Below are positions 12,254-26,276 of a stretch of DNA of 64,000 nt, piece by piece. Both the position numbers and the translations under genes were made by a program. The first letter of the stretch is position 1. Each line of letters starts with the position of its first letter. The stretch covers positions 2,480,001 through 2,544,000 of the forward strand of contig NZ_CP015732.1 of the NCBI RefSeq assembly GCF_001750145.1. The letters are read 5' to 3'. The notes beneath the pieces were generated by a model. It was not told where the DNA came from and searched no databases. It was given only the letters and a program-made list of their open reading frames with translations. This DNA is from Arthrobacter sp. U41. GTDB taxonomy: Bacteria; Actinomycetota; Actinomycetes; Actinomycetales; Micrococcaceae.

Positions 12254-12841
12254 ATGACTGACACCTGGCTGATCGTAGGCCTCGGGAACCCCGGAGCCGA
12301 GTACGCCCACAACCGGCACAACGTCGGACAGATGGTCCTTGACGAACTCGCTTCCCGGATCGGGAGCGGCTTCAAGTCCCACAAGTCCCGGGCGCAGGTT
12401 CTGGAGGGCCGGCTTGGCATCGGCGGACCGCGGGTGGTGCTGGCCAAACCGATGAGCTACATGAATATTTCCGGCGGGCCGGTCTCTGCGCTGGCCAGGT
12501 TCTATGACATCGAGCCCGGCCATGTCATCGCCGTGCACGACGAAATCGACATTCCCTTTAATACAGTGAAGCTGAAGCTCGGTGGCGGCGAAGGTGGCCA
12601 CAACGGGCTGCGGGATATCTCCAAGGCCCTGGCCACCAAGGACTACCTGCGGGTGCGGGTCGGCGTGGGCCGTCCGCCGGGCCGGATGGACACGGCAGAC
12701 TATGTGCTGAAGGACTTTTCCGGCTCCGAGAAAAAGGAACTGCCGTTCCTCATCGACGCCGCGGCCGATGCTGTGGAGACTTTGGTCCGCGACGGCCTGC
12801 CTGCGGCCCAGCAGCAGTTCCACCCCGCCAAGGCACCCTAG
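12254..12841 (+). CDS. pth: Peptidyl-tRNA hydrolase
   Basis: The 195-aa enzyme releases tRNA from dropped-off peptidyl-tRNA. The signature [20 protein letters not shown] (about residues 10-29) contains the catalytic His; [10 protein letters not shown] and HDEIDIPF follow, and [13 protein letters not shown] completes the active site. The length is normal. It is co-directional with rplY, separated by 105 bp. Confidence 0.97.
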
Positions 12842-12907: not shown

Positions 12908-12937
12908 TTTCCAAGCGTACTGAAATGCCGATATGAT
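12908..12937 (+). promoter_or_regulatory. Possible promoter of the first LuxR pair
   Basis: TTTCCA at 12908-12913 and TATGAT at 12932-12937 are separated by 18 bp, the only good sigma-70-like pair in the gap after pth. It would start a transcript about 85 nt before the 13030 start codon. Moderate match only. Confidence 0.35.
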
Positions 12938-13029
12938 CGCTCTACTCTCATGTCGGGGGATAGGGATACGCTACTTCTAGGCGGACGGTCTCGGTTTTGC
13001 TGTCCGCAAAGCGGTACGAAGGAAACTAG

Positions 13030-15774
13030 ATGTCGAGGGAATCGCTGGGCTGGGGAAATGTTTCCACTACATTGGCACCCGCCGAAGAAGAACCTGCAGC
13101 AGGTCCGCTGGACCGGCACCGGTGGACCGGTCTCGCGCGCAATGCCGACGCCGACCGGGTCCGTAGTGCCCTGCTCGCGGAGGACCGCATGGGCGTGGTC
13201 ATCACCGGTGACCGCGGGGTCGGCAAGACACAGGTAGGACGCACTGCGATCGCGGGCTTCGGCCCCGACGTCTATACCCTCCAGCTCCGCAGCTCGGGAC
13301 CGGGGTCGGCGACCCCTTACGGCTGCCTCGCCTTCACCCTCGCCCGCCTGCCGCAAAGCTCCCTTGGCTCGCCGACGGCCATCCTGCACGGCATCACCTC
13401 CCTGATCCGGGACGACGCCGCCGGGCGCAAATGCGTCATTATGCTGGACAACGCCGGAGCCCTGGACGAACTGAGCACCGGTGTCCTGCTCAACCTGCTC
13501 CAGACCCGGACCGCACGGCTCGTCGCCACTGCCCAGCGCACAACGGACCTTCCGCCGGACTTCTACTGGCTCATCACCTCCGGGCAGCTGGCCGAGGTCC
13601 GGCTCGCCAACCTCACGGAGGTCGAAACCCTCGAGGTGCTCAAGGCGGCACTCGGGCACAGGGTCTCCAGCGCACTGGCAAGCCAGCTGCACCAGCTGGT
13701 CGGCGGCAGCCCGACGCTGCTGCAGGCCGTAGTCTCCGAGCAGATCGAACGCGGCAACCTGGTGCTGTCCGGATCCGTCTGGACCCTGGTGGACGAGGTG
13801 GTCCTTGACGGGCGGACCGCACTGGAAGACATCGTCCGGGCACGGTATGCCCGGGAAACACCGGTGGCCCGGGAGCTCATCGAGGTGCTGTCCTGCGCCC
13901 GGACCCTGCCACTGGCCCGGCTCGCGCGGATGTACAGCCCCGGGGTGATCGCGGACATGGAGGACGCGGGCCAGATTGTGATCGAACGGACGGACCGGCA
14001 TCCCGTTTCACTCGGGGACCGCTATCTGGGCGACATCGTTCGGAACTGGCTCAGTGTGGAGCGCAGGCTGGAGCTGCGGGACAAGGTGCCGGGGCACCAG
14101 CAGGAGGAGCTCAATGAGCTCACCGTGGAGGACCTGATGGCCTACGCGGCCTGGACCCACGACTGTGATGCGCCGCTGGCACCCGCCCACGCCGTGGCGG
14201 CCGCCGGCGCCGCCGTCAAACTCTTTGACCCGAAGTTTGCGCTCAAATGCGCCGACAGCCTGACCCCGGAGGATCCGGAATGGACCGAAGGGCAGCTGCA
14301 GAAATCCGCCGCCTACCTTCAGCTGGGGCTCCCACTGCAGGCCATGGCTGCCCTGGACGACGTCTCCGAGGCCCAGCTCAGCACCCTCGGCGCGGAGGCA
14401 TACGCGGAGCTGATCGCCGCGAAGGCGGACTGCATGTCGTGGCTCGAGGACCGGACGGGACAGGTTCCTGAACTGATCCGCCGGGCCCGGCTGCGGCTCC
14501 ATGAACTCGGTGAGCTCCAGCCGGCGGCCTCAGCCGGGGAACTGGCGAGCGCCGGTTGGTGCCTGGACCTCTGCGAATTCAACTACCTCTCCTTCGTCGG
14601 TGACTACGCGCCCATGATGGAACGGCTCAACGCGGCGGCTTCGCCGGACGTGGATGACATCGATCCGGTGCACCGGCTGAGATCCGGGATCATCCTGATG
14701 GAAGCCCTCTGCATGACGGGCAAGGAAATCGATGCCCGCAAGCTGATGCGTGACATCGGCGGGCAGCTGGGGGAATGGTCCAACGTTCCGAGGATCCGCG
14801 AAAACTTCGCCTGGCGGTCCTTCAACGTGCTGCTGCTGTCCGGACAGTGGCGCCAGAGCATCGACATGCTCAAGGACGCCAGCGGCCGGGCCGGCCACGG
14901 GCTGCATTCGGGCAGCGCGGCCACTGATCTTGCGGTTGGACTTGCATACGTCTACGCGGGCCGCGGCTATATGGCGCTCGACCCGCTCCTGGCCGCGATC
15001 GCGCAGCTCGAAGTCCGGGCCAGCCTGCACTCCCTGCGGCAGGCCTACGCAGCGACCGCCTTCGCCTACGCCCAGACCGGCAATTCCGTGCAGGCCACCG
15101 TTTACCTGGACCGGGCACGCTCAGCGGACGGCCCCGCCCGCTTCACGGTCCGAAGCGCCGCGGACTTCTGCATGGACATGGCCTCACGCTGGCTGGGTGA
15201 TCCGGAGGCGAAGGACCGGCTGGTGCGCGCGGCCGAGGAACACTACCGGGCCGGCCGTTACACCCTGGCCGGCATCTTCATGCTCGGCGCGACGGTCAAC
15301 GGCACCACCCGGGACTTCCACTTTATGGAGGAGATCGCCGGGTTGCGGCAGGGTCCGCTGGCGGAGCTGTCCCGGACCGTAGCCGTGGGCAGCCGCAAGA
15401 AAGACGCCGCCATCATGCTGGAAGCCGCAGCCCAGGCCGCGGCCATGGAACTCGACGCAGTCCAGGCCAGATGCGCCGCCCTCGCCTTCGACTTCGCCAA
15501 GGCTGCTGGTCTGAGCGGAAAGGCCAGTGCCGCACACGCCATCCTTGAAAGCCTCGCGGATTCCCTGCCCGCCCTGCCGATCACGCCCAGGAACAAGGGG
15601 CCGCTCCTCACCGAGAGGGAGCGGCAGATAGCCACCCTTGCCGGAAACGGAGTCTCGAACAAGGATATAGCCCTGGCCATCGGCATCTCAGTGAGAACAG
15701 TGGAAGGGCACCTCTACCAGGTGTTCACCAAGCTGGGAGTTTCTTCGCGAAGTGATCTGCTTGGACTTATCTAG
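13030..15774 (+). CDS. Large ATPase-LuxR regulator, pair 1 first gene
   Basis: The 914-aa product is a LAL/MalT-type regulator. The P-loop ATPase has Walker A GDRGVGKT at residues 60-67 and Walker B IMLDN at 137-141. About 600 residues of helical, TPR-like repeats without clear motifs follow. The C-terminal LuxR helix-turn-helix begins near residue 858 (LTERERQI) and has recognition helix SVRTVEGHLYQVF. The Walker B second acidic residue is Asn (N141), unlike its downstream partner, so hydrolysis may be altered. AAGGAA seven bases before ATG 13030 supports the start. Its stop lies inside the next gene, so translation is probably coupled. It resembles the 19366 gene more than its direct neighbour. 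The ligand is unknown. Confidence 0.9.
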   Translation: MSRESLGWGNVSTTLAPAEEEPAAGPLDRHRWTGLARNADADRVRSALLAEDRMGVVITGDRGVGKTQVGRTAIAGFGPDVYTLQLRSSGPGSATPYGCLAFTLARLPQSSLGSPTAILHGITSLIRDDAAGRKCVIMLDNAGALDELSTGVLLNLLQTRTARLVATAQRTTDLPPDFYWLITSGQLAEVRLANLTEVETLEVLKAALGHRVSSALASQLHQLVGGSPTLLQAVVSEQIERGNLVLSGSVWTLVDEVVLDGRTALEDIVRARYARETPVARELIEVLSCARTLPLARLARMYSPGVIADMEDAGQIVIERTDRHPVSLGDRYLGDIVRNWLSVERRLELRDKVPGHQQEELNELTVEDLMAYAAWTHDCDAPLAPAHAVAAAGAAVKLFDPKFALKCADSLTPEDPEWTEGQLQKSAAYLQLGLPLQAMAALDDVSEAQLSTLGAEAYAELIAAKADCMSWLEDRTGQVPELIRRARLRLHELGELQPAASAGELASAGWCLDLCEFNYLSFVGDYAPMMERLNAAASPDVDDIDPVHRLRSGIILMEALCMTGKEIDARKLMRDIGGQLGEWSNVPRIRENFAWRSFNVLLLSGQWRQSIDMLKDASGRAGHGLHSGSAATDLAVGLAYVYAGRGYMALDPLLAAIAQLEVRASLHSLRQAYAATAFAYAQTGNSVQATVYLDRARSADGPARFTVRSAADFCMDMASRWLGDPEAKDRLVRAAEEHYRAGRYTLAGIFMLGATVNGTTRDFHFMEEIAGLRQGPLAELSRTVAVGSRKKDAAIMLEAAAQAAAMELDAVQARCAALAFDFAKAAGLSGKASAAHAILESLADSLPALPITPRNKGPLLTERERQIATLAGNGVSNKDIALAIGISVRTVEGHLYQVFTKLGVSSRSDLLGLI

Positions 15775-18475
15775 GAAGCGCGCAGCCGCCCCCGATGCGA
15801 CAGAAGTGTCCAGAGCCCTGACCGGGCGGACGGAGGACCTGCGCTCGGCGGTGGAGGCCATCCAAGGCAGCACCCACGTCGCGGTCCTGCTGCTCGGGGA
15901 CAGCGGGATCGGCAAATCCACGCTTCTGGAAGCCGTGGTGGAGGAACTGCAGACTACTGTGACCCCTGTGCTTATCCACGGCAGCCCTTCGCTGGCGAAT
16001 GTTCCGTACGGGGTGCTGGGTCCCTTCATTGTCGGCCTGCCCGTGCAGGATGCCACCTCGCAGCTCGCGGTGCTCAGAACCTTCTGGTCCCGGTTGGAGG
16101 AAGAGCGCGGCGTCACCCAGAAGCCCCTGCTGCTGATCGTGGACGACGCCCATGACCTGGATGAGTCGACCGCAGGGATCCTGGTGGAACTCGCCGCCGC
16201 GGGGTGGGCCAAGCTGCTGGTGGCCTCGGCCACCCGCCCGGGCCTGCCGGAGCCGCTGCTTCAGTTGTGGTTTGAAGGCATAGCGGAACGCCTCGACCTT
16301 CGTCCGCTAACCCAGCAACAGACGGCCGAAATCCTGCAACACGAACTCGGTCCCCAGATCCTGCCGAACGTCGCCGAGGTCCTCTGGGAAGCGTCCGAGG
16401 GCAACCCGCTCCTGCTCAACGGGTTGATCGAAGACGCGAAGAGTGACGGCTCACTGCTGCAACGCAACGGGGTGTGGCTGCTCGGGCGTCCCCTCAACAG
16501 CCACGGGGACCGCTTGACCGATGTGGTGCGGCGGCAGTTGCTGCGGCGCTCGCCGGAAGAACGCCAAGCCCTGAACCTGATCGCCCTGGCCGAGCCAGTG
16601 TCCCGCGAGCTCATTGAGTCGACGGTGGGTGAGGTCCCGGTTGCTGCCCTTATCGAACACGAGTTGATCCGCGTTACGCCATCGCCCCACCCTCAACTGC
16701 GGTTGTGGCACTCGATCTACGCGGACACGCTGCGCAACCTGATCTCGCCGGCGCGCAGCCTCCAGCTCCGGCAGAGCCTGCTGCGGCTGATGGACAGCGA
16801 GCTGACGTCGGCAGAAGGCCTGCTGCGCCAGGTGAGCTGGTCGCTGGAATGCGGAGCTGAAGTCGACGACCGTCAGCTGCTGCGTGCCGCGGTCCTCGCC
16901 AGCCGGCTCTATCAGGACGAACTGGCACGCAAGGCCGCCGCTTTGGTCAAGGACCCTGAACTGCAGGTGGCGGCCCGGACGGTGACGGCACGGACCTACT
17001 TCAATACCTCGGACTATGCTGCCGCGCGGGACATCCTGGAGGCCGACTTCGCCAAGGGACACAGTGTGGCTGTCCTCCTCACCGGAACCCTGATGTGGGC
17101 TTCGGTGCTGGCCGCTCTCGGCCACACGCCCACCGACATCATGGACCGCGCCGGCGCACTCCTGGAGGCAGGGGAGCGGCTGGCCAGGGAGAACCCGGAC
17201 GACGCCGAGGAAATCCTCGCGGCCACCAGGGAACGCTATGCCACCATGCACGCCATGGTGTTCGCGCTTGCAGGCGAAAACCCGGACGGTGCCGGCACGG
17301 GAACCGAAGCGGAGCCCGCCCTGCCGAATCCGCCGGCCAACTCCCCTGAAGCAGCCTTCAGGCTGGCGCTGAAATCGGAACTGCTCCTGGTGCAGGGCAA
17401 ATCGGAGCAGTCGTTCGCGGCGGTGTCCGAGGCTCTTGACGTCGCGGGCTCCGGGCACGACGACCTGTATTTTCTGGCCGAATTCCTTGTGGCGCGGGCA
17501 GCAGCGCCCGTGATCCACGGCGGCGACTGGGAAGCCGCAGAATCCCTGCTGGCACGCGTCGCCGCCGGACCGGGACCAAACCTCATCACATTCGGCGGGG
17601 GAGTCCACGCCGCGCGCGGGATCATCCTGCTGTACCAGGGCAAGGCCGCCCAGGCTCTGAACACCCTGAGCGCGGCCCTGGAATCACTGCGGCTCGCGGA
17701 TCCCCAGCAGCTCTTCGCCCTGGCCTCCTCGATGGCTTTCGCCGCCGCCGCGGAAGTCGGCGCCAAGGACAGGGCTGCGGCATTCCTCGCCGACTACGAA
17801 GCCGCACCGCGGGCGGTGTCACGCTACCTGCGCCTCCTCTCGCAGATGGCGGTCACCTACGGAAAAGCGCGCCTCGGCAACTACCCGGGCGCCGTCGAGG
17901 AGCTGCGGGCACTGGGCCGGCCCGATGGCGACGATTCCACCGCAGGCGTGGAGTTCGACTCGCTTGCCTTCTGCCTGGCCCTGGGGGACCGGGACGCAGC
18001 TCTCCGGCTGCTGGAACTGCAGCCAGGGCTGGAAGGCCCCAGGCCGGCCGCGATCTGTCGCTACGCGGCGGCGATCAGAACCGACCTGCCGGCGGACCAC
18101 CTGGACGCTGGCAAAAGCTGCGAGGATGCCGAGCTCTGGGGCTTCGCGGCTTTGGCCTATGACGCCGCTGCGAACGGGTACCGGGCAGCCGGCGACACCC
18201 TGAGGGAACGCATGGCAATGTCCCAGCGCAAGCGCTGCCTGGACAGGGCCGACAGCGCCAACGGCCTCGAACAGGAACCCGAGACCGACGCCTTGGGTCT
18301 GCTGACCCGCCGTGAGCGCGACATCGTGGCACTGGCCGTGCGGGGCCTCAGCGACCGCCAGATTGCCGCCGAACTGCAGGTGTCCATCCGGACAGTCGAG
18401 GGCCACCTGTACCGAAGCTATGCCAAGCTCAACGTCAAAGGCCGGGACCAGCTGCCCGGAGCGTCCCCCGCTTAG
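15752..18475 (+). CDS. Large ATPase-LuxR regulator, pair 1 second gene
   Basis: The 907-aa protein has the same plan as its neighbour. Walker A is GDSGIGKS at 49-56 and Walker B is LLIVDD with D131-D132, so here both acidic residues are present. A long helical region follows, then a LuxR helix-turn-helix from about residue 850 (LTRRERDI) with recognition helix SIRTVEGHLYRSY. The frame opens at GTG 15752, overlapping the previous gene by 23 bp. No clear ribosome binding site precedes it and an in-frame GTG at 15806 is an alternative, but the overlap argues for coupling. Its ATPase sequence and linker (LIEDAKSDGSLLQRNGVW) are closest to the 22168 gene. Confidence 0.9.
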   Translation: MICLDLSRKRAAAPDATEVSRALTGRTEDLRSAVEAIQGSTHVAVLLLGDSGIGKSTLLEAVVEELQTTVTPVLIHGSPSLANVPYGVLGPFIVGLPVQDATSQLAVLRTFWSRLEEERGVTQKPLLLIVDDAHDLDESTAGILVELAAAGWAKLLVASATRPGLPEPLLQLWFEGIAERLDLRPLTQQQTAEILQHELGPQILPNVAEVLWEASEGNPLLLNGLIEDAKSDGSLLQRNGVWLLGRPLNSHGDRLTDVVRRQLLRRSPEERQALNLIALAEPVSRELIESTVGEVPVAALIEHELIRVTPSPHPQLRLWHSIYADTLRNLISPARSLQLRQSLLRLMDSELTSAEGLLRQVSWSLECGAEVDDRQLLRAAVLASRLYQDELARKAAALVKDPELQVAARTVTARTYFNTSDYAAARDILEADFAKGHSVAVLLTGTLMWASVLAALGHTPTDIMDRAGALLEAGERLARENPDDAEEILAATRERYATMHAMVFALAGENPDGAGTGTEAEPALPNPPANSPEAAFRLALKSELLLVQGKSEQSFAAVSEALDVAGSGHDDLYFLAEFLVARAAAPVIHGGDWEAAESLLARVAAGPGPNLITFGGGVHAARGIILLYQGKAAQALNTLSAALESLRLADPQQLFALASSMAFAAAAEVGAKDRAAAFLADYEAAPRAVSRYLRLLSQMAVTYGKARLGNYPGAVEELRALGRPDGDDSTAGVEFDSLAFCLALGDRDAALRLLELQPGLEGPRPAAICRYAAAIRTDLPADHLDAGKSCEDAELWGFAALAYDAAANGYRAAGDTLRERMAMSQRKRCLDRADSANGLEQEPETDALGLLTRRERDIVALAVRGLSDRQIAAELQVSIRTVEGHLYRSYAKLNVKGRDQLPGASPA

Positions 18476-18802
18476 CCGACTGACGTTCTCCGGTCCCCCC
18501 GTTGCGCCATTGTGCCGCTGCGCTGCGGTCTCCCGGCGGCGCCCTGGCGGATCCACTCCATTTTCCGCACCGGGCGTGCGTAACTCGCGGGGTCCGGCAA
18601 GTAGGCTCCGGGCCGGACGGGTAAGCGGACCGCGTAGCCGGACCGAGCCAGCGTCGGAAGCCCGCCGTCGTGGCAAGTACCCTCGATCATGGTTCGTTCG
18701 CAACCCGTCACGAATTCGAGTACGGACTACCGGTGTGCCGCTGGCGTCCGGTTCGCTAGATTGTAGTCAGCACCAGGAACCACCCGACAAAGGACTTTGA
18801 AC
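18476..18802. other. Spacer upstream of the small ORF, no gene seen
   Basis: This is the first part of the 890-bp gap between the two LuxR pairs. Open frames through it look like read-through with no recognisable protein or ribosome binding site. It should hold the promoter for the small ORF at 18803; the A/T-rich TAGATT at 18757-18762 is a possible -10 element but lacks a good -35 partner. Confidence 0.4.
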
Positions 18803-18946
18803 GTGGAGCCATCAACGCGGATGCGGCCCAGGCCCTTCGATGAAGCTGCCAGGATCGCCGGCGTGGGGACGATGATCAGTTCTGGTGCCATAGATACTAA
18901 AATTCTTCCAAATTGGTCTCCCGAATGGTTCCCGCCCTGTGCGTGA
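18803..18946 (+). CDS. Small ORF between LuxR pairs, candidate 47-aa peptide
   Basis: GTG 18803 to TGA 18944-18946 encodes 47 residues. AAAGGA at 18789-18794 lies eight bases before the GTG, the best ribosome binding site in the whole spacer. The N-terminus is basic (RMRPRP), the middle is small and hydrophobic (IAGVGTMISSGA), and the end is PNWSPEWFPPCA, with two Trp, a Pro-Pro and a single Cys. There is no obvious signal peptide, membrane segment or known domain. A large hairpin begins 11 bases after the stop. It resembles nothing I can name. A signalling or modified peptide sensed by the flanking regulators is possible; a non-coding coincidence is the alternative. Confidence 0.45.
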   Translation: MEPSTRMRPRPFDEAARIAGVGTMISSGAIDTKILPNWSPEWFPPCA

Positions 18947-18957
18947 ACCCCTTTGAC

Positions 18958-19019
18958 GGAGCCGACGGCGTCGGAACCTTCTGAGACCGAGGTTCCTCCC
19001 CCCAGCCGCCGTCGGCTCC
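18958..19019. repeat. Long inverted repeat after the small ORF
   Basis: Perfect 13-bp arms at 18958-18970 and 19007-19019 enclose an inner pair GGAACC/GGTTCC (18973-18978 and 18991-18996). The structure begins 11 bases after the small ORF stop and may end its transcript. An open frame crossing it from TTG 18953 to 19276 has no ribosome binding site or recognisable content. Confidence 0.65.
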
Positions 19020-19043
19020 CTAAGATTTCAGTGGCCGCAGTCC

Positions 19044-19078
19044 TGGCTCGGCCGCCCGCAGGCCGGGCGGCCGTGCCA
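19044..19078. repeat. GC-rich hairpin in the LuxR spacer
   Basis: Ten-bp perfect arms at 19049-19058 and 19064-19073 surround a five-base loop. TGGC/GCCA extends them by four pairs across one T-T mismatch. It lies 25 bases after the previous inverted repeat. The remaining spacer to 19365 shows nothing further that I can assign. Confidence 0.6.
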
Positions 19079-19365
19079 AGACTGTGTCGGCACCGAGAAG
19101 CAGAATCTGGCCGGGACGGCAGCCCTCCCGAGCCTTCGCCCGCAGGGACACCCGCGTGGTCGGGCATCGCGTCTCCGGGCGGGCGTGACGGTTCGGACTA
19201 CTTGGTTTGGAACCCTTCGAGACCCGCAGATCCTGAGTACACCCACGTAGCCCAGGTCATGCCCCTACGCCTGTAATCGAGTAGCGCATACGCATCCCGA
19301 ATTTTCCTGCGGTCAATATGTTGGACCTATCGGTAGTCAATACTTTGATTGCGAAGGTCTCTCTC

Positions 19366-22101
19366 ATGTTTCAGCAAGAAGCCGGCCTGTCTGCGGGCAG
19401 CGGCAGAACAGATGCGATTTCAGCCGCCCAACGCCAGGGGAAGGTGTGGCACGAGAAGCACTTCACGCGACACAAAACCGTTACTGATGTAGTCGCGGCC
19501 CTGACCTCGGGATCGGGCTGCGGGGCAGTGATAGTGGGGGAACACGGGGCCGGCAAGTCCTTTATCGCCCAGCGCGCCCTCGAACAGCTCGGTGACGAGT
19601 TCCTGGTAGTCCAGATCAGGGGCAGCTCCATCTCCTCGAAGCTCCCGTACGGCGCCCTCAGCGTCCTGCTCAACGATCTCGATGCCTCCCACCTCGAGCA
19701 CCCGCTGATGGTCCTCCGGGGCTTGACCCAGTTGCTCCATACCCGTGCCCAGGGCCGCAGCGTCGTACTCTTCGTGGACAATGCCCATGACCTGGACGAG
19801 CTCTCCACCATGATGGTTGCCCAACTCTGCGCCGGCGGCCATGTCCTGCTGCTCGCGGCGTGCGTGGACCTGCCCAATCTGGGCAGCGACATCATGGGCC
19901 TCTGGAAGGACGACCTGCTGCGCCGGGTGGACCTTGGCCCCTTCGATTTCGTCGAGACGGCGGACAGCCTCGCCCAGGAGTACGGCGGGCACTTTTCCCA
20001 CGCCGCGGCACGTGCCCTCTGGAACGCCAGCGGCGGCAATGCGCTCTTCCTGCACTCCCTGGCCCGGGAACAGATCAAACTGGGAACGATTGTCCGCCAT
20101 GAGGATTCCTGGGTTTTGGGGGACCGCCCGGTGGCTCTGGCAGGTGAGATCCGGGATGTGCTGAAGGCCCGCCTCAACCGGCTCAGCCCGGGCCAGCGCG
20201 ACGTGTTTGAAATCCTGTCGCTCGCCGGAGCTTTGCCCCTGCAGACCCTGATGCACGTGTCCAAGGCGCAGGACATCGACACCCTCCAGGAGCGGGCGCT
20301 GATCCGCGTCAGCCATGAACATCCGCCCATGGTGAGCATCGCCAATCCGGTGACCGCCGGCATCGTTGCCAGCGTGGTTCCGCCCGGCCGCAGTGCCGAG
20401 CTTCGCCGCCGGCTGGGCGCCGTGCTCCAAGACCTGGACCTGGACGAATACACGGGTTCCACCGCCGTCGCATGGGCACTGGACTGCGGGGAGGAAGTCG
20501 ATCCCAAGCTCGCCCTGGCCGCGGCGCGCCTCGCGAACAAGGCGTCCGATCCGCAGTCCGCCCTGAGGTTCACCCGGGAAATCGACGGACGGGAAAAGCT
20601 GACGGACGTGGCCGTCGAATCTGCCCGGGCATTCATCACCCTGCACAACGACGAAGCAGCCCGCCGGATTCTGACCGACGTTGAACAGCGAGCCGGTGAG
20701 GGCCTGGCACTGGATGAATGGGCCTCACTGCAGCTGCTGTGGGCGGAACTGGACAGCCGCAGCCCCGCAGCGGCGGGCAGCGCACTGGCCCGGCTGCAGG
20801 AGATCGAACTGCGGGTCACGATGTCCGCGGACGCCGGCACGAAGCGTGGCTCCGTGGCGGAGCGGGTGCGCCTGGCATATGCCGAACTGGCCGTTTTTGA
20901 GGGCCGGTACCGTGATGTCCTGCAGATGTTCCCGCATGCGGATGCCACCGATCTGGGCAGCGAAGCCAAGATCATGGCGGCGAGCCTGTTGTCTGAGGCG
21001 CAGGCTGTCACCGGCGACATCCTCGGCGCCGTGGGGCTGGGCCGGCAGGTCATTGTCGCCGCTGCCGCCCTGGATCTGGCCGACGTCACCATCCGCGAAA
21101 TCAGGGGCAGGTTCCTGCTGCTCCTGCTGCTGTCGGCAAAGTTCCGGGAGGCCGGGGACTTCATCGCGGGCACCTCGGAGTCCTGGGACGAGCAGGCCAG
21201 GCTTGGCGGCATGTTCGAGATCGGTCAGGGGATTGTCGACCTCCATCATGGTCATCTCACCCGGGCCCTTCCGCGGCTGCAATCCGGAGTCTGGCAGCTC
21301 AGCGTGCACGATCCGGATGCTGTTGCCGGACTCGCAACGGCAGCCTGCGCCTACGCGCTTGCACTCCAGGGCGAGGAGGACAAAGCCGGGGCCCTGCTGC
21401 TGGATCTTGAGGAGCCAATGCCGCGGGCGTCGTGGCTGGTGAACCGGATCACGCGCTACTTCGAGCTGTCCGCAAAAGCGGAAATCGGTCAAAAGACCGA
21501 GGCGCTCCGCGCGCTGAAGCTTGAAGCCGACATCGACACTGAAGCCTCCGCGCTCGCCACCGGACTCCAGTTTCTCTCCGCTGTGGCCCGGCTGGGAGAC
21601 CGCCAGGCCAGCCAGAAGCTCAGTGACCTGGCGGGCCAGGTCACGGGCCACTTCGCCGGCCTTTGCTCCCGGCTCGCGGAAGGGCTGAAGGATGCCGACA
21701 GCGAGGAATTGCTGGCAACCTCCAAGGACGCCGATGCGGCCGGACACGCAGTCTTCGCCAGGGACGTGACAAGAAAAGCTGTCAGCTGCGCCAACGATGC
21801 CGGGAACCGTATCTCGCTCCGGATGGCCCAGCGCACCCAGCAGTCCCTGGAGGACCGGTTCGGCAACCCCAGGAACGGCGTGCTGTCCCTGCTGACCTCG
21901 ACGCTGACAGCCCGGGAATCCGAGGTGGCTGTCAGGGCCGCCGCGGGTACCTCCAACCGGAAGATCGCAGACGAGATGCACGTTTCCGTCCGCACGGTTG
22001 AGGGACACCTCTACCAGGTGTATGCGAAACTCCACGTCGCGAGCAGGTCGGAGCTCAAAGATGTCATCGCCGGACCAGCGGAACACGCCCGCCTCGGTTA
22101 G
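19366..22101 (+). CDS. Large ATPase-LuxR regulator, pair 2 first gene
   Basis: The 911-aa product has Walker A GEHGAGKS at residues 58-65 and Walker B VLFVDN with D138-N139. As in the 13030 gene, the second acidic residue is Asn. A long helical repeat region follows, and a C-terminal LuxR helix-turn-helix starts at about residue 847 (LTARESEV) with recognition helix SVRTVEGHLYQVY. The open frame begins at ATG 19318 without a ribosome binding site. I chose ATG 19366 because AAGG lies eight bases upstream and conserved sequence starts after it. A linker segment before the central region (EQIKLGTIV...SWVL) matches that of the 13030 protein (EQIERGNLV...VWTL). Sixty-six bases separate it from the next gene. 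Confidence 0.88.
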   Translation: MFQQEAGLSAGSGRTDAISAAQRQGKVWHEKHFTRHKTVTDVVAALTSGSGCGAVIVGEHGAGKSFIAQRALEQLGDEFLVVQIRGSSISSKLPYGALSVLLNDLDASHLEHPLMVLRGLTQLLHTRAQGRSVVLFVDNAHDLDELSTMMVAQLCAGGHVLLLAACVDLPNLGSDIMGLWKDDLLRRVDLGPFDFVETADSLAQEYGGHFSHAAARALWNASGGNALFLHSLAREQIKLGTIVRHEDSWVLGDRPVALAGEIRDVLKARLNRLSPGQRDVFEILSLAGALPLQTLMHVSKAQDIDTLQERALIRVSHEHPPMVSIANPVTAGIVASVVPPGRSAELRRRLGAVLQDLDLDEYTGSTAVAWALDCGEEVDPKLALAAARLANKASDPQSALRFTREIDGREKLTDVAVESARAFITLHNDEAARRILTDVEQRAGEGLALDEWASLQLLWAELDSRSPAAAGSALARLQEIELRVTMSADAGTKRGSVAERVRLAYAELAVFEGRYRDVLQMFPHADATDLGSEAKIMAASLLSEAQAVTGDILGAVGLGRQVIVAAAALDLADVTIREIRGRFLLLLLLSAKFREAGDFIAGTSESWDEQARLGGMFEIGQGIVDLHHGHLTRALPRLQSGVWQLSVHDPDAVAGLATAACAYALALQGEEDKAGALLLDLEEPMPRASWLVNRITRYFELSAKAEIGQKTEALRALKLEADIDTEASALATGLQFLSAVARLGDRQASQKLSDLAGQVTGHFAGLCSRLAEGLKDADSEELLATSKDADAAGHAVFARDVTRKAVSCANDAGNRISLRMAQRTQQSLEDRFGNPRNGVLSLLTSTLTARESEVAVRAAAGTSNRKIADEMHVSVRTVEGHLYQVYAKLHVASRSELKDVIAGPAEHARLG

Positions 22102-22167
22102 CGGAGCCGGCCCACCATCCTCCGGGCCCGTCCGTGAGCCGCCGCGCCGGCGCAGGGAGGGTCGCAG

Positions 22168-24849
22168 GTGGAAAGCCTGACTGAGTCAGCCACGCTGGTT
22201 GGACGGTCCGGCGTCGTCAAGGACATTGTCAGGTGCCTGCGGGACGGCGTGAAGTCCGGCGCCCTCATCGTCGGCAACCCGGGGACCGGGAAGACCGCCG
22301 TTTCCAGGGCGGTCATCCGGGAACTCCGGCCCAACACGGCGGTGATTCGACTCGCAGCAACCCCGGCCCTGTCGGCCGTGCCCTTCGGCGCGCTGTCGCC
22401 CTATCTCAGCCAGCTGCCCGCGCACGACCTGGATTCGTACTCCGCCGTCGTTAAGGCCGTGACGGACAGTATCAAATCCCAGCCCAGCAGGCCGCTCTTC
22501 GTGATCGACGACGCCCAGTGCCTGGACCGCGGGACGACGCAGCTTGTGGCCCAGGCCGTAGCCACCGGGGCTGCCAGCGTCCTGGCCACCTGCCGGCCGG
22601 GCCTGCTGATCCCCGAGGAATTCCTGGCCCTCTGGGATGACGGGATCCTGGCGAAATTTGATCTGGAGCCGCTCACCCGGGCCGAGGTGCACCAGCTCTG
22701 CGAGCAGGTACTCCGGGCCGATGTCTCGCCCTGGGCCAGCGCGGTGTTCGCGGACGCCTCCGCCGGAAACCCGTTTATGCTGCTCTCCCTGATCGAACAC
22801 GCCCGGAAGACCGGGGCGCTGGGACTGCGCCGTGGCATCTGGTTCCTGCTCTCACCTCCCGCCCTGGCCGATATCCCGGTCGCTGACCTGATCGGCCATG
22901 AACTGCGCTCGATGTCACCCGAGGAACGGACTGCTGCCGCCATCGTGGCGCTGGCTGGACCAATTTCGCTCGGCCAGTTGCTGGGATTCGGCGGCCCGAA
23001 GGCTGTCGACGCGCTGGAGAGGGCCGGCATTATCAGCGTGTCGCGGGGCGCCGACCGGACGGTGCGTCCGGCAAGCCCCCTGATCGGCGAGATCATCCGC
23101 CGCTGGGTTCCGGCGGGCAGAAGCGCGGGACTGCGTGCCAGCTTCGTGTCACTGCCGTCGGGAACGTTTGTGCCCCCGGACGCCTTCCTGAACCGGGTTC
23201 GGTGGGCCCTGGATTGCGGGGCCGTGGTCCCGGCGGACCAGCTCCTCAAGGCGGCGTCCACGGCCAATGCGGCCCTCGATGCCCCGGCGGCGCTCAGGAC
23301 CGCTGAGGCAATTTCCGACGCTGCGTTGGTTCCCGAGGCCCGGCTGCAGATGGCCTACGCGCGCTATCTGCTCGGCGACCGCGAGCAGTCCGCGAAATTC
23401 CTTCAGCTCTCCGAACCCGCCCCGAACGAGGAATCTCGCCTTCTGGCGGCGCTGCTGTCCGGCCGCCTGCGGGGACGGGCAAAGGCACCGGCACCTCCGG
23501 ACGCAGCACCCGCCGGCGCGGCACCCGGCGTCGGCCGGATCCGGAACGGAGGGCCGGCCTCGCCAGGGGAAGCCGCGGCGGGGCCGTCGTGGCTGGATCC
23601 GGCTCCGATTGCCGCGGCGGCGGGGATCGCCGGTAGCCAGCTGAACGCCGGCCAGGAGGACCGTGAGGGCAGACTGAGCCGGCTGGTCGTGGCCGCAGGG
23701 GAGCGGCCAGAAATCAAACTTCCGGCGGAGTCGCTGCTCGCCGAACTGCTCTGCGCCAAGGGCAGGGTCGTGGAGGGCATCGGGCTCGCCCGCGACGCCT
23801 GGCAGGGGGCGCAAAGCTGGGACATGGCGTTGCCGCTCGTTTACGAAGACCTGCTGGTGCGCTACAGCCTGAGCCTGAACTGGGCCGGGGAATGGGAGGC
23901 GCTCGGCACTGCCCTCGATGAGTACGAGGCCCTTTACCCGTCGAGGCTGTTGCTCAGCGGCGGCATCCTGCACTTGATGAGGGGCCTCGCCCGCGTCCGT
24001 CAAGGGCGCATGCCCGAGGGCATTGCCGAACTCGTTCTTGGCGTCGAGGAACTCACGATTGCCGATCCCTGGGAGTTGCTGCCGCTAGCCCATGCCGTGG
24101 CAGCCTATGCCGCCTCCGTGGTGGGCCAGGCGCAGGAGGCCGAGGAGCACGCGGCCGCTTTCCGGCTGTTCCGATACCGGGGGCCGGGGGCCGTCCCGCT
24201 GCTCGCCGAAGCCTATTCAACCGCGGCCAGCGGATCACCGGGCGGGGCCGGCGATGTCAGCAAGAGGCTCACCGGCCTGGCCGCGGAGGCCAAACGGCAG
24301 GGACTGCGGGGGGTCGAGACGGATATCAGACGGCTTGCCGTGCGCCGCGGAGATACCGAAGCGGCGGACGGTCTTGCCCTCAGCAGCCTCGCGGTCGAGG
24401 GGAGGGAAGCGGGGATGCTGCACGACTATGCGCTTGCAGTGCTGCAGGCTGACGACGCCGAACTCGTCCGGATCAGTGACAAGGCATTGCGTGCCGGCTA
24501 CGTGTTGCTGGCCCTCGAAGCGGCGCAGCAGGCGGAACGGTGCCTGGCCGAAACCACGGACAAGCGGAAGCTGCTGGCGGTCCAGCGGAAGATCCAGAAC
24601 CGGATGACTGCTGCCGGGATGGCTGCCCACATCGACCTGGTCCGTCCCGAGCAGGATGCGGAACTGACCGCCCGGGAAACCGAAATCCTGGATTTGGTGT
24701 CCGGCGGTGCCACCAACGCCGAGATCGCCAGCAGGCTCTGCGTTTCCCAGCGGACCGTGGAAGGACACCTCTACCGGGTCTTCGCCAAACTGGGCGTCAG
24801 CCGGCGGGTCGATCTTATCGACACGGGCGGCGATTCGCACCGGGCCTGA
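22168..24849 (+). CDS. Large ATPase-LuxR regulator, pair 2 second gene
   Basis: The 893-aa product has Walker A GNPGTGKT at 36-43 and Walker B LFVIDD with D114-D115, both acidic. The middle is helical and contains an Ala/Pro/Gly-rich low-complexity stretch at about residues 430-475. The LuxR helix-turn-helix starts near 833 (LTARETEI) with recognition helix SQRTVEGHLYRVF. AGGGAGG seven bases before GTG 22168 gives a strong start. The linker LIEHARKTGALGLRRGIW parallels that of the 15752 protein, marking it as the pair-2 counterpart. It is followed by sufS after 113 bp, apparently as a separate unit. Confidence 0.9.
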   Translation: MESLTESATLVGRSGVVKDIVRCLRDGVKSGALIVGNPGTGKTAVSRAVIRELRPNTAVIRLAATPALSAVPFGALSPYLSQLPAHDLDSYSAVVKAVTDSIKSQPSRPLFVIDDAQCLDRGTTQLVAQAVATGAASVLATCRPGLLIPEEFLALWDDGILAKFDLEPLTRAEVHQLCEQVLRADVSPWASAVFADASAGNPFMLLSLIEHARKTGALGLRRGIWFLLSPPALADIPVADLIGHELRSMSPEERTAAAIVALAGPISLGQLLGFGGPKAVDALERAGIISVSRGADRTVRPASPLIGEIIRRWVPAGRSAGLRASFVSLPSGTFVPPDAFLNRVRWALDCGAVVPADQLLKAASTANAALDAPAALRTAEAISDAALVPEARLQMAYARYLLGDREQSAKFLQLSEPAPNEESRLLAALLSGRLRGRAKAPAPPDAAPAGAAPGVGRIRNGGPASPGEAAAGPSWLDPAPIAAAAGIAGSQLNAGQEDREGRLSRLVVAAGERPEIKLPAESLLAELLCAKGRVVEGIGLARDAWQGAQSWDMALPLVYEDLLVRYSLSLNWAGEWEALGTALDEYEALYPSRLLLSGGILHLMRGLARVRQGRMPEGIAELVLGVEELTIADPWELLPLAHAVAAYAASVVGQAQEAEEHAAAFRLFRYRGPGAVPLLAEAYSTAASGSPGGAGDVSKRLTGLAAEAKRQGLRGVETDIRRLAVRRGDTEAADGLALSSLAVEGREAGMLHDYALAVLQADDAELVRISDKALRAGYVLLALEAAQQAERCLAETTDKRKLLAVQRKIQNRMTAAGMAAHIDLVRPEQDAELTARETEILDLVSGGATNAEIASRLCVSQRTVEGHLYRVFAKLGVSRRVDLIDTGGDSHRA

Positions 24850-24962: not shown

Positions 24963-26276
24963 GTGGCTTTTGCGGCGACGTCAGAGTCCCAGGCCCTGCT
25001 CACGCCTGCACTGAGCGACGATGAAGTCTTGCGGATCCGCAACGACTTCCCCATCCTCTCCAGGTCCATGGGCGGGCACCCCCTGATCTACCTGGATTCC
25101 GGGGCAACCTCGCAGAACCCGGTGTCCGTCATTGAGGCCGAGCAGGAGTTCTATGAACAGCGGAACGCCGCCGTTCACCGCGGCGCCCACCTGCTGGCCG
25201 TCGAGGCCACGGAGTCCTTCGAGGACGCCCGCGACACTCTTGCCGCTTTCCTGGGCGCCCGGGCCGATGAGATCATCTGGACCGCGAACGCCACCGAGGG
25301 CCTGAACCTGCTCAGTTACGCGTTCCTGAACTCCTCCCTGCCGGGGGCCGGGGCGCAGGCGGCCCGGTTCGCCCTGGGGGCCGGCGACGAGATTGTCGTC
25401 ACCGAGATGGAGCACCACGCCAACCTCATCCCGTGGCAGCAGCTCGCGGTGCGGACCGGTGCGACCCTTCGGTTCATCCCCGTCGACGACGCGGGCGTGC
25501 TGGACCTCGAGGCGGCCGCCGGCATCATCACCGGGGCCACCCGGGTCCTCGCCTTCAGCCACGCCTCCAATGTCCTGGGCACCATCAACCCGGTCAAGAC
25601 GCTGGTGGCAATGGCCCGCCAGGTGGGGGCCCTGACCGTACTGGACGCCTGCCAGTCCGCGCCGCACCTGCCGCTGGATGTGAAGGACCTCGGCGTGGAC
25701 TTCGCGGTCCTGTCCGGGCACAAGATGCTGGGGCCCACCGGCGTCGGCGCGCTGTACGGCCGGTCCGAACTGCTGAACGCGCTGCCGCCGTTCCTCAGCG
25801 GGGGATCGATGATCACCACGGTAACGATGGAGCGCGCCGAATTCCTGCCTGCCCCGCAGCGCTTTGAAGCGGGAACCCAGAACGTCTCCCAGGCCATCGC
25901 CCTCGCCGCGGCGGCGAACTACCTCACCGAGACGGGGATGGGCCGCATCCACGCCTGGGAATCCTTGCTCGGGCAGCGCCTCGTCGAGGGTCTCGCGTCG
26001 ATCCCCGGCATCCGGGTCCTCGGACCGGCCCCGGGACAGGAGCGGATCGGCCTCGCCTCCTTCGACGTCGCCGGTGTGCACGCCCACGACGTCGGCCAGT
26101 ACCTGGACAGCAAGGGAATCGCGGTCCGGGTCGGCCACCACTGCGCGCAGCCGCTGCACCGCCGTCTCGGCCTGACGGCCACCACCCGGGCCAGCACCTA
26201 CCTGTACAACACAACGTCCGATGTGGACACTTTCCTCGCGGCTGTCGCCGAGGTCCGAGCCTACTTTGGAGCTTAA
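24963..26276 (+). CDS. sufS: Cysteine desulfurase SufS
   Basis: The 437-aa PLP enzyme removes sulfur from cysteine as a protein persulfide for Fe-S cluster assembly. The PLP-binding Lys lies in LSGHKMLGPTGVGALYG, and the catalytic Cys in VRVGHHCAQPLHRRLG, typical of group II (SufS) desulfurases. THEMEHHANLIPW-type substrate contacts are present as VTEMEHHANLIPWQQ. GAGGAGG precedes GTG 24963. It is 12 bp from sufU, its sulfur acceptor; sufBCD is not in this window. Confidence 0.96.
   Translation: MAFAATSESQALLTPALSDDEVLRIRNDFPILSRSMGGHPLIYLDSGATSQNPVSVIEAEQEFYEQRNAAVHRGAHLLAVEATESFEDARDTLAAFLGARADEIIWTANATEGLNLLSYAFLNSSLPGAGAQAARFALGAGDEIVVTEMEHHANLIPWQQLAVRTGATLRFIPVDDAGVLDLEAAAGIITGATRVLAFSHASNVLGTINPVKTLVAMARQVGALTVLDACQSAPHLPLDVKDLGVDFAVLSGHKMLGPTGVGALYGRSELLNALPPFLSGGSMITTVTMERAEFLPAPQRFEAGTQNVSQAIALAAAANYLTETGMGRIHAWESLLGQRLVEGLASIPGIRVLGPAPGQERIGLASFDVAGVHAHDVGQYLDSKGIAVRVGHHCAQPLHRRLGLTATTRASTYLYNTTSDVDTFLAAVAEVRAYFGA

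Follow-up and report, generated by a model that had tools for sequence, protein, structure and literature searches.

Four large regulator genes lying between pth and a sufS-type gene of Arthrobacter sp. U41 form two tandem units, each consisting of a class A gene followed by a class B gene. Trees and gene order show A and B to be sister paralogues that go back to one old duplication, stand in the order A then B, and are inherited as a unit. As far as residues can show, usually exactly one of the two partners retains the P-loop together with both Walker-B acids. We propose, with a probability that we put at about 45%, that the A-B unit would encode two subunits of one MalT-type STAND regulator, one a live and the other a dead ATPase, with surface structures as its targets. 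If that is true, soil bacteria related to Arthrobacter would possess one mixed gene switch, half of it live and half dead.

The window is the whole stretch analyzed, 64,000 nucleotides of contig NZ_CP015732.1 (positions 2,480,001 to 2,544,000, forward strand), and its pth–sufS interval (13030-24849) holds the four MalT-type STAND/LuxR genes, all on the + strand. The features referred to below are as follows.

12254..12841, + strand: pth, the upstream flank of the array and a reference point in relatives
12925..12985, + strand: conserved block that precedes gene 1 and contains two CTACT cores, TCTACTCTC and GCTACTTCT
13030..15774, + strand: gene 1, class A, pair I, 914 aa; P-loop GDRGVGKT, Walker B LDN (N in place of the second acid), HTH RTVEGHLYQ
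15752..18475, + strand: gene 2, class B, pair I, 907 aa, GTG start; P-loop GDSGIGKS, Walker B VDD, HTH RTVEGHLYR
18598..18723, + strand: three YRAGTAS heptamers, at 18598, 18674, and 18717, in the gene 2–gene 3 gap
19198..19284: three YRAGTAS heptamers 5' of gene 3, at 19198 on the - strand and at 19234 and 19278 on the + strand
19318..22101, + strand: gene 3, class A, pair II, 927 aa counted from the first ATG; P-loop GEHGAGKS, Walker B VDN, HTH RTVEGHLYQ
22168..24849, + strand: gene 4, class B, pair II, 893 aa, GTG start; P-loop GNPGTGKT, Walker B IDD, HTH RTVEGHLYR
24963..26276, + strand: sufS-type gene, the downstream flank of the array, its name assigned from sequence alone

Genes 1 and 2 overlap by 23 bases and genes 3 and 4 are separated by 66 bases, the gap between genes 2 and 3 being 842 bases. 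Gene 3 more likely starts at the in-frame ATG of position 19366, giving 911 aa, than at 19318, since in nine relatives the first ATG is unconserved, while GAAGG is conserved and the second ATG is present in eight of the nine. In the block 5' of gene 1, TATGATC, TCTACTCTCATGTCGGGGGATA, and GGGATACGCTACTTC are highly conserved in most of nine relatives. A long inverted repeat in the gene 2–gene 3 gap (18950-19025, GGAGCCGACGGCG ... CGCCGTCGGCTCC), spotted by eye, is perhaps a terminator.

By the features tested, the four proteins are members of the LAL/MalT STAND kind, and the architecture of ATPase, helical repeats, and LuxR-type HTH ascribed to them in the earlier note was recovered. The C-terminal GerE/LuxR HTH scored above the Pfam cut-off and Walker A and B motifs were present in all four, so that the ATP-binding domain expected of a LAL protein was found in each; AAA_16 was above its cut-off in genes 2 to 4 and below it in gene 1. 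As modelled by AlphaFold (mean pLDDT, 87.4 and 90.7), the products of genes 1 and 2 comprise an NTPase, long helical repeats, and an HTH, which together with the ORF lengths gives the long helical-repeat middle and the roughly 900 residues typical of LAL/MalT proteins. The best Foldseek match of the gene 1 model was the MalT chain 8bob (E 7.5e-6, with a low TM-score), and the class B profile (profiles of both classes were built from ten rows each) matched the MalT repeat domain 1hz4 (E 3.1e-6). Across residues 13-369, the gene 2 model matched CED-4 and plant NLRs, that is, the NBD-HD-winged-helix fold of CED-4, Apaf-1, and the NLRs by which STAND proteins are recognized. AbsR2 (NCBIfam NF050132) was the top NCBIfam match of all four, spanning the NTPase part; membership in it was rejected at 75.7, 106.7, 102.8, and 96.7 bits against a curated cut-off of 850. 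What is unusual for this kind of protein, judging from the comparisons below, is that they come as an old, co-inherited, catalytically unequal pair.

Pairwise identity among the four proteins is only about 22-30%, and at that level the alternation of classes is invisible from percent identity alone, so a tree was needed. Pairwise scores were discarded as grouping evidence, since gene 3 had its highest score with gene 2 and its lowest with gene 1. A tree of 49 proteins under a mixture model, in which 17 single LAL proteins of other families served as the outgroup, placed gene 1 with gene 3 (class A, 100/99) and gene 2 with gene 4 (class B, 100/100), so that the classes alternate A-B-A-B along the locus, as had been claimed earlier. 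Sixteen of the outgroup proteins were separated from A + B at 100/99; the remaining one, L159 (4447-7296, family f11), a solo A-like protein of another family, fell within class A, and no B partner was found on its stretch. The sister relation of A and B presumes that the root lies among the LAL outgroup proteins. The opposite grouping (1 with 2 and 3 with 4), which would have told against the two classes, did not arise, and a constraint uniting gene 1-type with gene 2-type proteins was rejected (AU p 2.15e-5). In a wider quick tree of 134 rows, one branch split 70 A from 64 B proteins (SH-aLRT 99), and the A and B subtrees mirrored one another, with pair I and pair II units on both sides. A first quick tree, which had long branches and gave the A/B split at 80 only, was superseded by these trees.

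The class-specific motifs on which the division had first been based were likewise all found: Walker B ending in D-N in genes 1 and 3 and in D-D in genes 2 and 4, the final Q or R of the recognition helix in the order Q, R, Q, R, and the linkers EQIERGNLV and EQIKLGTIV in class A versus LIEDAKSDGSL and LIEHARKTGAL in class B. The idea of a duplicated two-gene unit stands, with one correction. Trees and gene order bear out the unit, but a recent event in Arthrobacter sp. U41 is contradicted, since both the A/B split and that between genes 1-2 and 3-4 are old and common to other genera.

We collected 107 A-B pairs from 87 loci of 78 genomes (40 from the genus of Arthrobacter sp. U41, 33 from the rest of the family, and 5 from family f6); these genomes are no random sample, as they were fetched on account of their matches, and the ORF length floor was 600, 700, or 800 aa, depending on the script. 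In general A is transcribed first and is followed by B, with the two overlapping or a few bases apart. The A-to-B gaps (n=108) had a median of 0.5 bases, with 54 overlaps and 94 gaps of at most 60 bases, the large negative values being an effect of using the first start codon of each ORF. The B-to-A gaps (n=33) had a median of 371, and one was 60 bases or shorter. Like-class neighbors were few in the 87 loci (five B-B and five A-A), and 24 genes lay outside tight pairs, some having lost their partner to the edge of the fetched region. A scan of 77 loci by named classes, cut ends included, gave A-B 42 times, A-B-A 18, B-A 4, B-A-B 4, A-B-B 3, A-A-B 2, and four other patterns once each. In 26 multi-pair genomes, the distances of partners were correlated at r 0.960, against values that averaged 0.338 and reached at most 0.650 when partners were shuffled within genomes 500 times. 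The nearest A and the nearest B were partners in 39 of 55 cases (mean 16.5 and maximum 32 in 200 shuffles). A and B are thus a conserved adjacent heterotypic pair, the arrangement required for an analogy with paired NLRs. The A-B order is maintained across the Micrococcaceae, as the earlier note had anticipated, and the wide separate spread of the classes that would have spoken against it was not seen, a minority of solo genes apart.

Several loci depart from the plain pattern. Both pair I genes of genome G030 are broken into pieces (L087, 3799-9317); they were left unmended and excluded from the pair count. A B-like third gene adjoins pair I in L063 (9378-11918), L068 (9424-12258), L073 (458-3076), L084 (9595-12024), and L155 (9366-11930). 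The LuxR recognition helix was searched for in these five genes and not found, and they are perhaps regulators that have shed the DNA-binding end.

With gene 3 as the query, the only full-length matches in its own genome were these four genes, six others matching at the HTH end. In the same-genus draw, gene 3 matched two or more times in all 36 genomes and four or more times in 10; in the 36 fetched loci of the genus, the first pair adjoins pth and/or sufS wherever these are on the stretch. Of 149 genomes in the family draw, 80 matched at 1e-40, and they represent 20 of the 32 genera; among twelve family genomes with a weak or no match, six had at least two neighboring matches at 1e-30 and the other six had none at that threshold. 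Matches were found in 24 of 198 genomes of the order draw (11 from this family, 5 from family f6 with A-B pairs, and 8 with single genes). In the class draw, class B matched in 55 of 296 at 1e-70, and 19 of the 20 regions fetched from it held a single gene and one held two neighboring genes. Among the best 80 matches, the carriers belonged mainly to Arthrobacter, Pseudarthrobacter, Paenarthrobacter, and Sinomonas, and one to Glutamicibacter. Arthrobacter-like A-B genes also turned up in records filed under Sporosarcina, Acidobacteria, and Vibrio cholerae (L323, L339, and L359), probably through contamination of those assemblies.

We then compared the catalytic residues of the two classes. The second Walker-B position is D or E in 28 of 29 outgroup proteins and 100 of 105 readable B proteins versus 19 of 107 A proteins, where it is mostly N (59) or T (22) and changed state about eight times on the tree. 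The P-loop lysine is present in 105 of 106 readable A, all 28 readable outgroup, and 88 of 105 readable B proteins. These losses are complementary: among 105 pairs (two with gaps at key positions excluded), 82 combine a non-acid A with a lysine-bearing B and 13 an acid-bearing A with a B lacking the lysine, the other combinations being A acid with B lysine (6) and neither (4). For the table [[13,6],[4,82]], Fisher's test gave 4e-9 on the full set and 0.004 when each cluster was represented by a single pair, the rows being related. Under a strict rule requiring the K, the S/T, and both Walker-B acids (104 pairs, three with gaps excluded), B alone was intact in 78 pairs, A alone in 11, both in 4, and neither in 11. 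Hence exactly one partner has the full set in 89 of the 104 pairs, and 15 break this rule. The inverted pairs, with no P-loop lysine in B and an acid in A, form essentially one clade, in which the catalytic roles of A and B look swapped; the swap therefore counts as about one switch and gives no replicated correlation, and a test on independent pairs has no power. Both pairs of the window are of the common kind, A with DN and B with DD. The D-N/D-D division had been taken to separate a hydrolyzing from an altered partner; it holds class-wide, but with the 19 acid-bearing A proteins as exceptions and with one clade inverted. The role of the second Walker-B acid is known from other P-loop NTPases, and extrapolation from these suggests what its replacement may do in class A. 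Genome G024 has a second pair II-type unit elsewhere (L065, 4114-9536) with DD in A and ED in B, both of which look intact.

The same data can be read as two separate homo-oligomeric LAL regulators that share an operon, each with its own inducers and targets, and that are co-inherited solely through co-transcription. Tight spacing and co-inheritance require no contact between the proteins, solo A genes exist, both partners look intact in 4 of the 104 pairs, and A and B are far apart in their helical repeats, with 22-30% identity overall. This reading fits poorly, however, with an A-then-B order that is fixed and paralogue trees that are mirrored in many lineages, with a full catalytic set found mostly in one partner only, and with the RTVEGHLY common to all four recognition helices, and we regard it as the main rival, somewhat less probable than the heteromer. 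We consider it unlikely that A is a modulator that binds the same operators as B, does not hydrolyze ATP, and antagonizes or locks B by competition for sites, without a mixed oligomer. The identical recognition helix of the two classes, the lack of the acid in most A proteins, and the matched amounts that gene overlap would yield agree with such a role, but the switched clade has lost the P-loop lysine in B, so one fixed modulator misfits some pairs. That A and B are ordinary LAL duplicates in which the residue after the first Walker-B acid varies freely and is uninformative on catalysis is more unlikely still, for although this acid changes state repeatedly in class A, it is kept in the outgroup and in B and is associated in A with the state of the lysine in B (by the Fisher values above, rows related).

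The note had suggested shared or related operators. Among the 19 LuxR-type genes of the genome, 15 are others than these four, and the recognition helix is different in all nine of the 15 that were read. In the fetched proteins, the residue after RTVEGHLY is Q in 91, R in 12, and K in 7 of 110 readable A proteins and R in 99 of 100 readable B proteins. Motifs were counted in 68 of the 107 pairs, left after removal of near-duplicates. The top enriched words 5' of the A genes of these 68 loci were mostly variants of YRAGTAS, some others being pth coding sequence. ACTACTTG occurred upstream of A genes in 12 loci versus 0.3 expected, and CTACTT was found in none of the 68 stretches upstream of B genes. 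YRAGTAS had 71 sites versus 6.6 upstream of type II A genes (n=42) and was weakly enriched, 11 versus 3.1, upstream of those of type I (n=26). The spacing of like-oriented sites peaked at 21 and 43-44 bases, approximate multiples of the helical turn, with scatter. The NarL heptamer is TACYYMT, which we take STACTYR, the reverse complement of YRAGTAS, to resemble. Six of the 16 YRAGTAS sites of the window lie within the gene 2–gene 3 gap, and the heptamers at 19198-19284, conserved in nine relatives, are a candidate autoregulatory operator of pair II.

Direct site pairs in this genome include ones upstream of a Flp pilin, a glycosyltransferase, and a BTAD/SARP regulator gene, the others being in coding sequence or by unrelated genes. 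In the genus, 21 of 30 loci have at least two sites upstream of Flp; the sites, 92 in total where 5.0 were expected, mostly recur in direct orientation at distances of 20-22, 32-33, and 53-54 bases. In most of the 30 genomes (L208-L237), these conserved direct YRAGTAS repeats begin some 140-230 bases ahead of the Flp/Tad pilin gene. In a family-wide draw, a site was present in 14 of 34 pair-bearing Flp loci, four of these 14 in the genus. Outside the genus, 10 of 30 pair-bearing loci had a site and 4 of 30 at least two. Six pair-less Flp loci had none (1.2 expected), a weak comparison. The Flp arrays thus appear, from these counts, to be a trait mainly of the genus. They did not track pair II, the mean number of sites being 1.75 in 8 loci with it, 3.3 in 15 without it, and 4.1 in 7 whose state is unknown; because genomes without pair II keep their Flp sites, pair I or another regulator must read them there.

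Several controls bear on these counts. Genome-wide, the spaced heptamer pattern was not enriched (31 matches versus 75 for the reversed control); a 22-base spacing made up 6 of the 31 (p about 0.02 after 27 spacings, assuming even spacing). Of the control promoters, rplY had 0 sites versus 5.6 expected (56 loci), pth 16 versus 4.1 (61 loci), and prs 17 versus 4.3 (55 loci), with no pth or prs locus having two or more, while sufS had 22 versus 2.8 (40 loci), nine with at least two. An excess above shuffles is therefore not unique to the candidate operators, as pth, prs, and sufS exceed them too. The sufS excess comes from several genomes in which YRAGTAS sites cluster between pair I and sufS, where others hold pair II. 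Such clusters, about 150-440 bases ahead of the start of the sufS ORF, occur in L048 (9240), L050 (9142), L079 (9462), L119 (7513), L149 (8867), and others. Taken together, the candidate heptamer array lends indirect support to the suggestion that the four regulators would share related operators.

The MalT/NLR-type STAND class is one whose ATP form oligomerises. Since one partner usually lacks a catalytic residue, we propose that A and B in the ATP state would co-oligomerize, with one subunit retaining ATP unsplit and the other hydrolyzing it and so resetting the switch. The inducer would probably be sensed by the helical repeats, and the shared RTVEGHLY helices would position the oligomer on helically phased TACTYR heptamers. 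Its targets may be the Flp/Tad pilin genes, the glycosyltransferase locus, and the SARP regulator, as genes for surface structures, and pair II may also act on its own promoter. Counting against a heteromer are the co-inheritance that co-transcription by itself would yield, the solo genes, the 15 of 104 pairs that break the rule, and the confinement of the swap to about one clade. Counting against the proposed operators are the weak type I enrichment, the few Flp sites outside the genus, the genome-wide count of spaced heptamers, and the control promoters. Our probabilities were set slightly lower on account of the Flp arrays being mainly a trait of the genus and of three of the four control promoters exceeding shuffles. 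A bolder version, which we put forward tentatively, would make the unit a family-wide bacterial counterpart of the paired NLRs: an obligate A-B heteromer with one hydrolyzing subunit, a role that in one lineage would have passed from B to A, turning on surface-attachment genes from phased NarL-like heptamers.

STAND switches are usually viewed as homo-oligomers in which a single protein determines the ATP cycle. The unevenly split and once apparently swapped catalytic residues of A and B are a natural experiment on ATP hydrolysis in such switches, and the heptamer arrays suggest candidate targets (pili, the glycosyltransferase locus, and the SARP regulator) in abundant soil bacteria. A limited search of literature available in part yielded no function for the A and B genes. 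In Arthrobacter UMCV2, airR3 and airR5, which cluster with the LAL protein RevU, are induced 25- and 55-fold by the volatile dimethylhexadecylamine, with swarming, according to the portion of the report available (PMC9659744). The UMCV2 chromosome carries an A-B pair (L357). The airR genes are possibly others than this pair, as the available text (PMC9659744) allows no matching, and a pairing of the airR genes is not mentioned in that portion. The dimethylhexadecylamine response may be a lead to the signal of the pairs.

Among known systems, the SARP-LAL regulators offer a parallel in their operator arrays, where heptamers recur in direct orientation at intervals of one or more helical turns. 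In the portion of that report available, PimR binds by its SARP domain to CGGCAAG heptamers 11 bases apart (PMC5930380), whereas the heptamer here is NarL-like and the spacing about two to four turns. From AbsR2 (NF050132), the A and B proteins differ in scoring 76-107 bits against its cut-off of 850. MalT acts from a single gene; like MalT and the LAL proteins, A and B combine a STAND NTPase, helical repeats, and a LuxR HTH at the C-terminus within some 900 residues, but they form two sister classes encoded as a tandem pair with unequal catalytic residues. The plant paired NLRs (RGA4/RGA5 and RRS1/RPS4) are products of adjacent sister STAND genes, of which only one partner requires an intact P-loop. 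The resemblance, an analogy only, lies in adjacent genes for two sister STAND proteins and in the match of the class B model to NLR structures. A working nucleotide site may likewise be needed in one partner only, as the residues hint in 89 of 104 A-B pairs. The A-B unit differs in being bacterial, in having both genes on the same strand, and in a LuxR HTH output directed to transcription rather than cell death.
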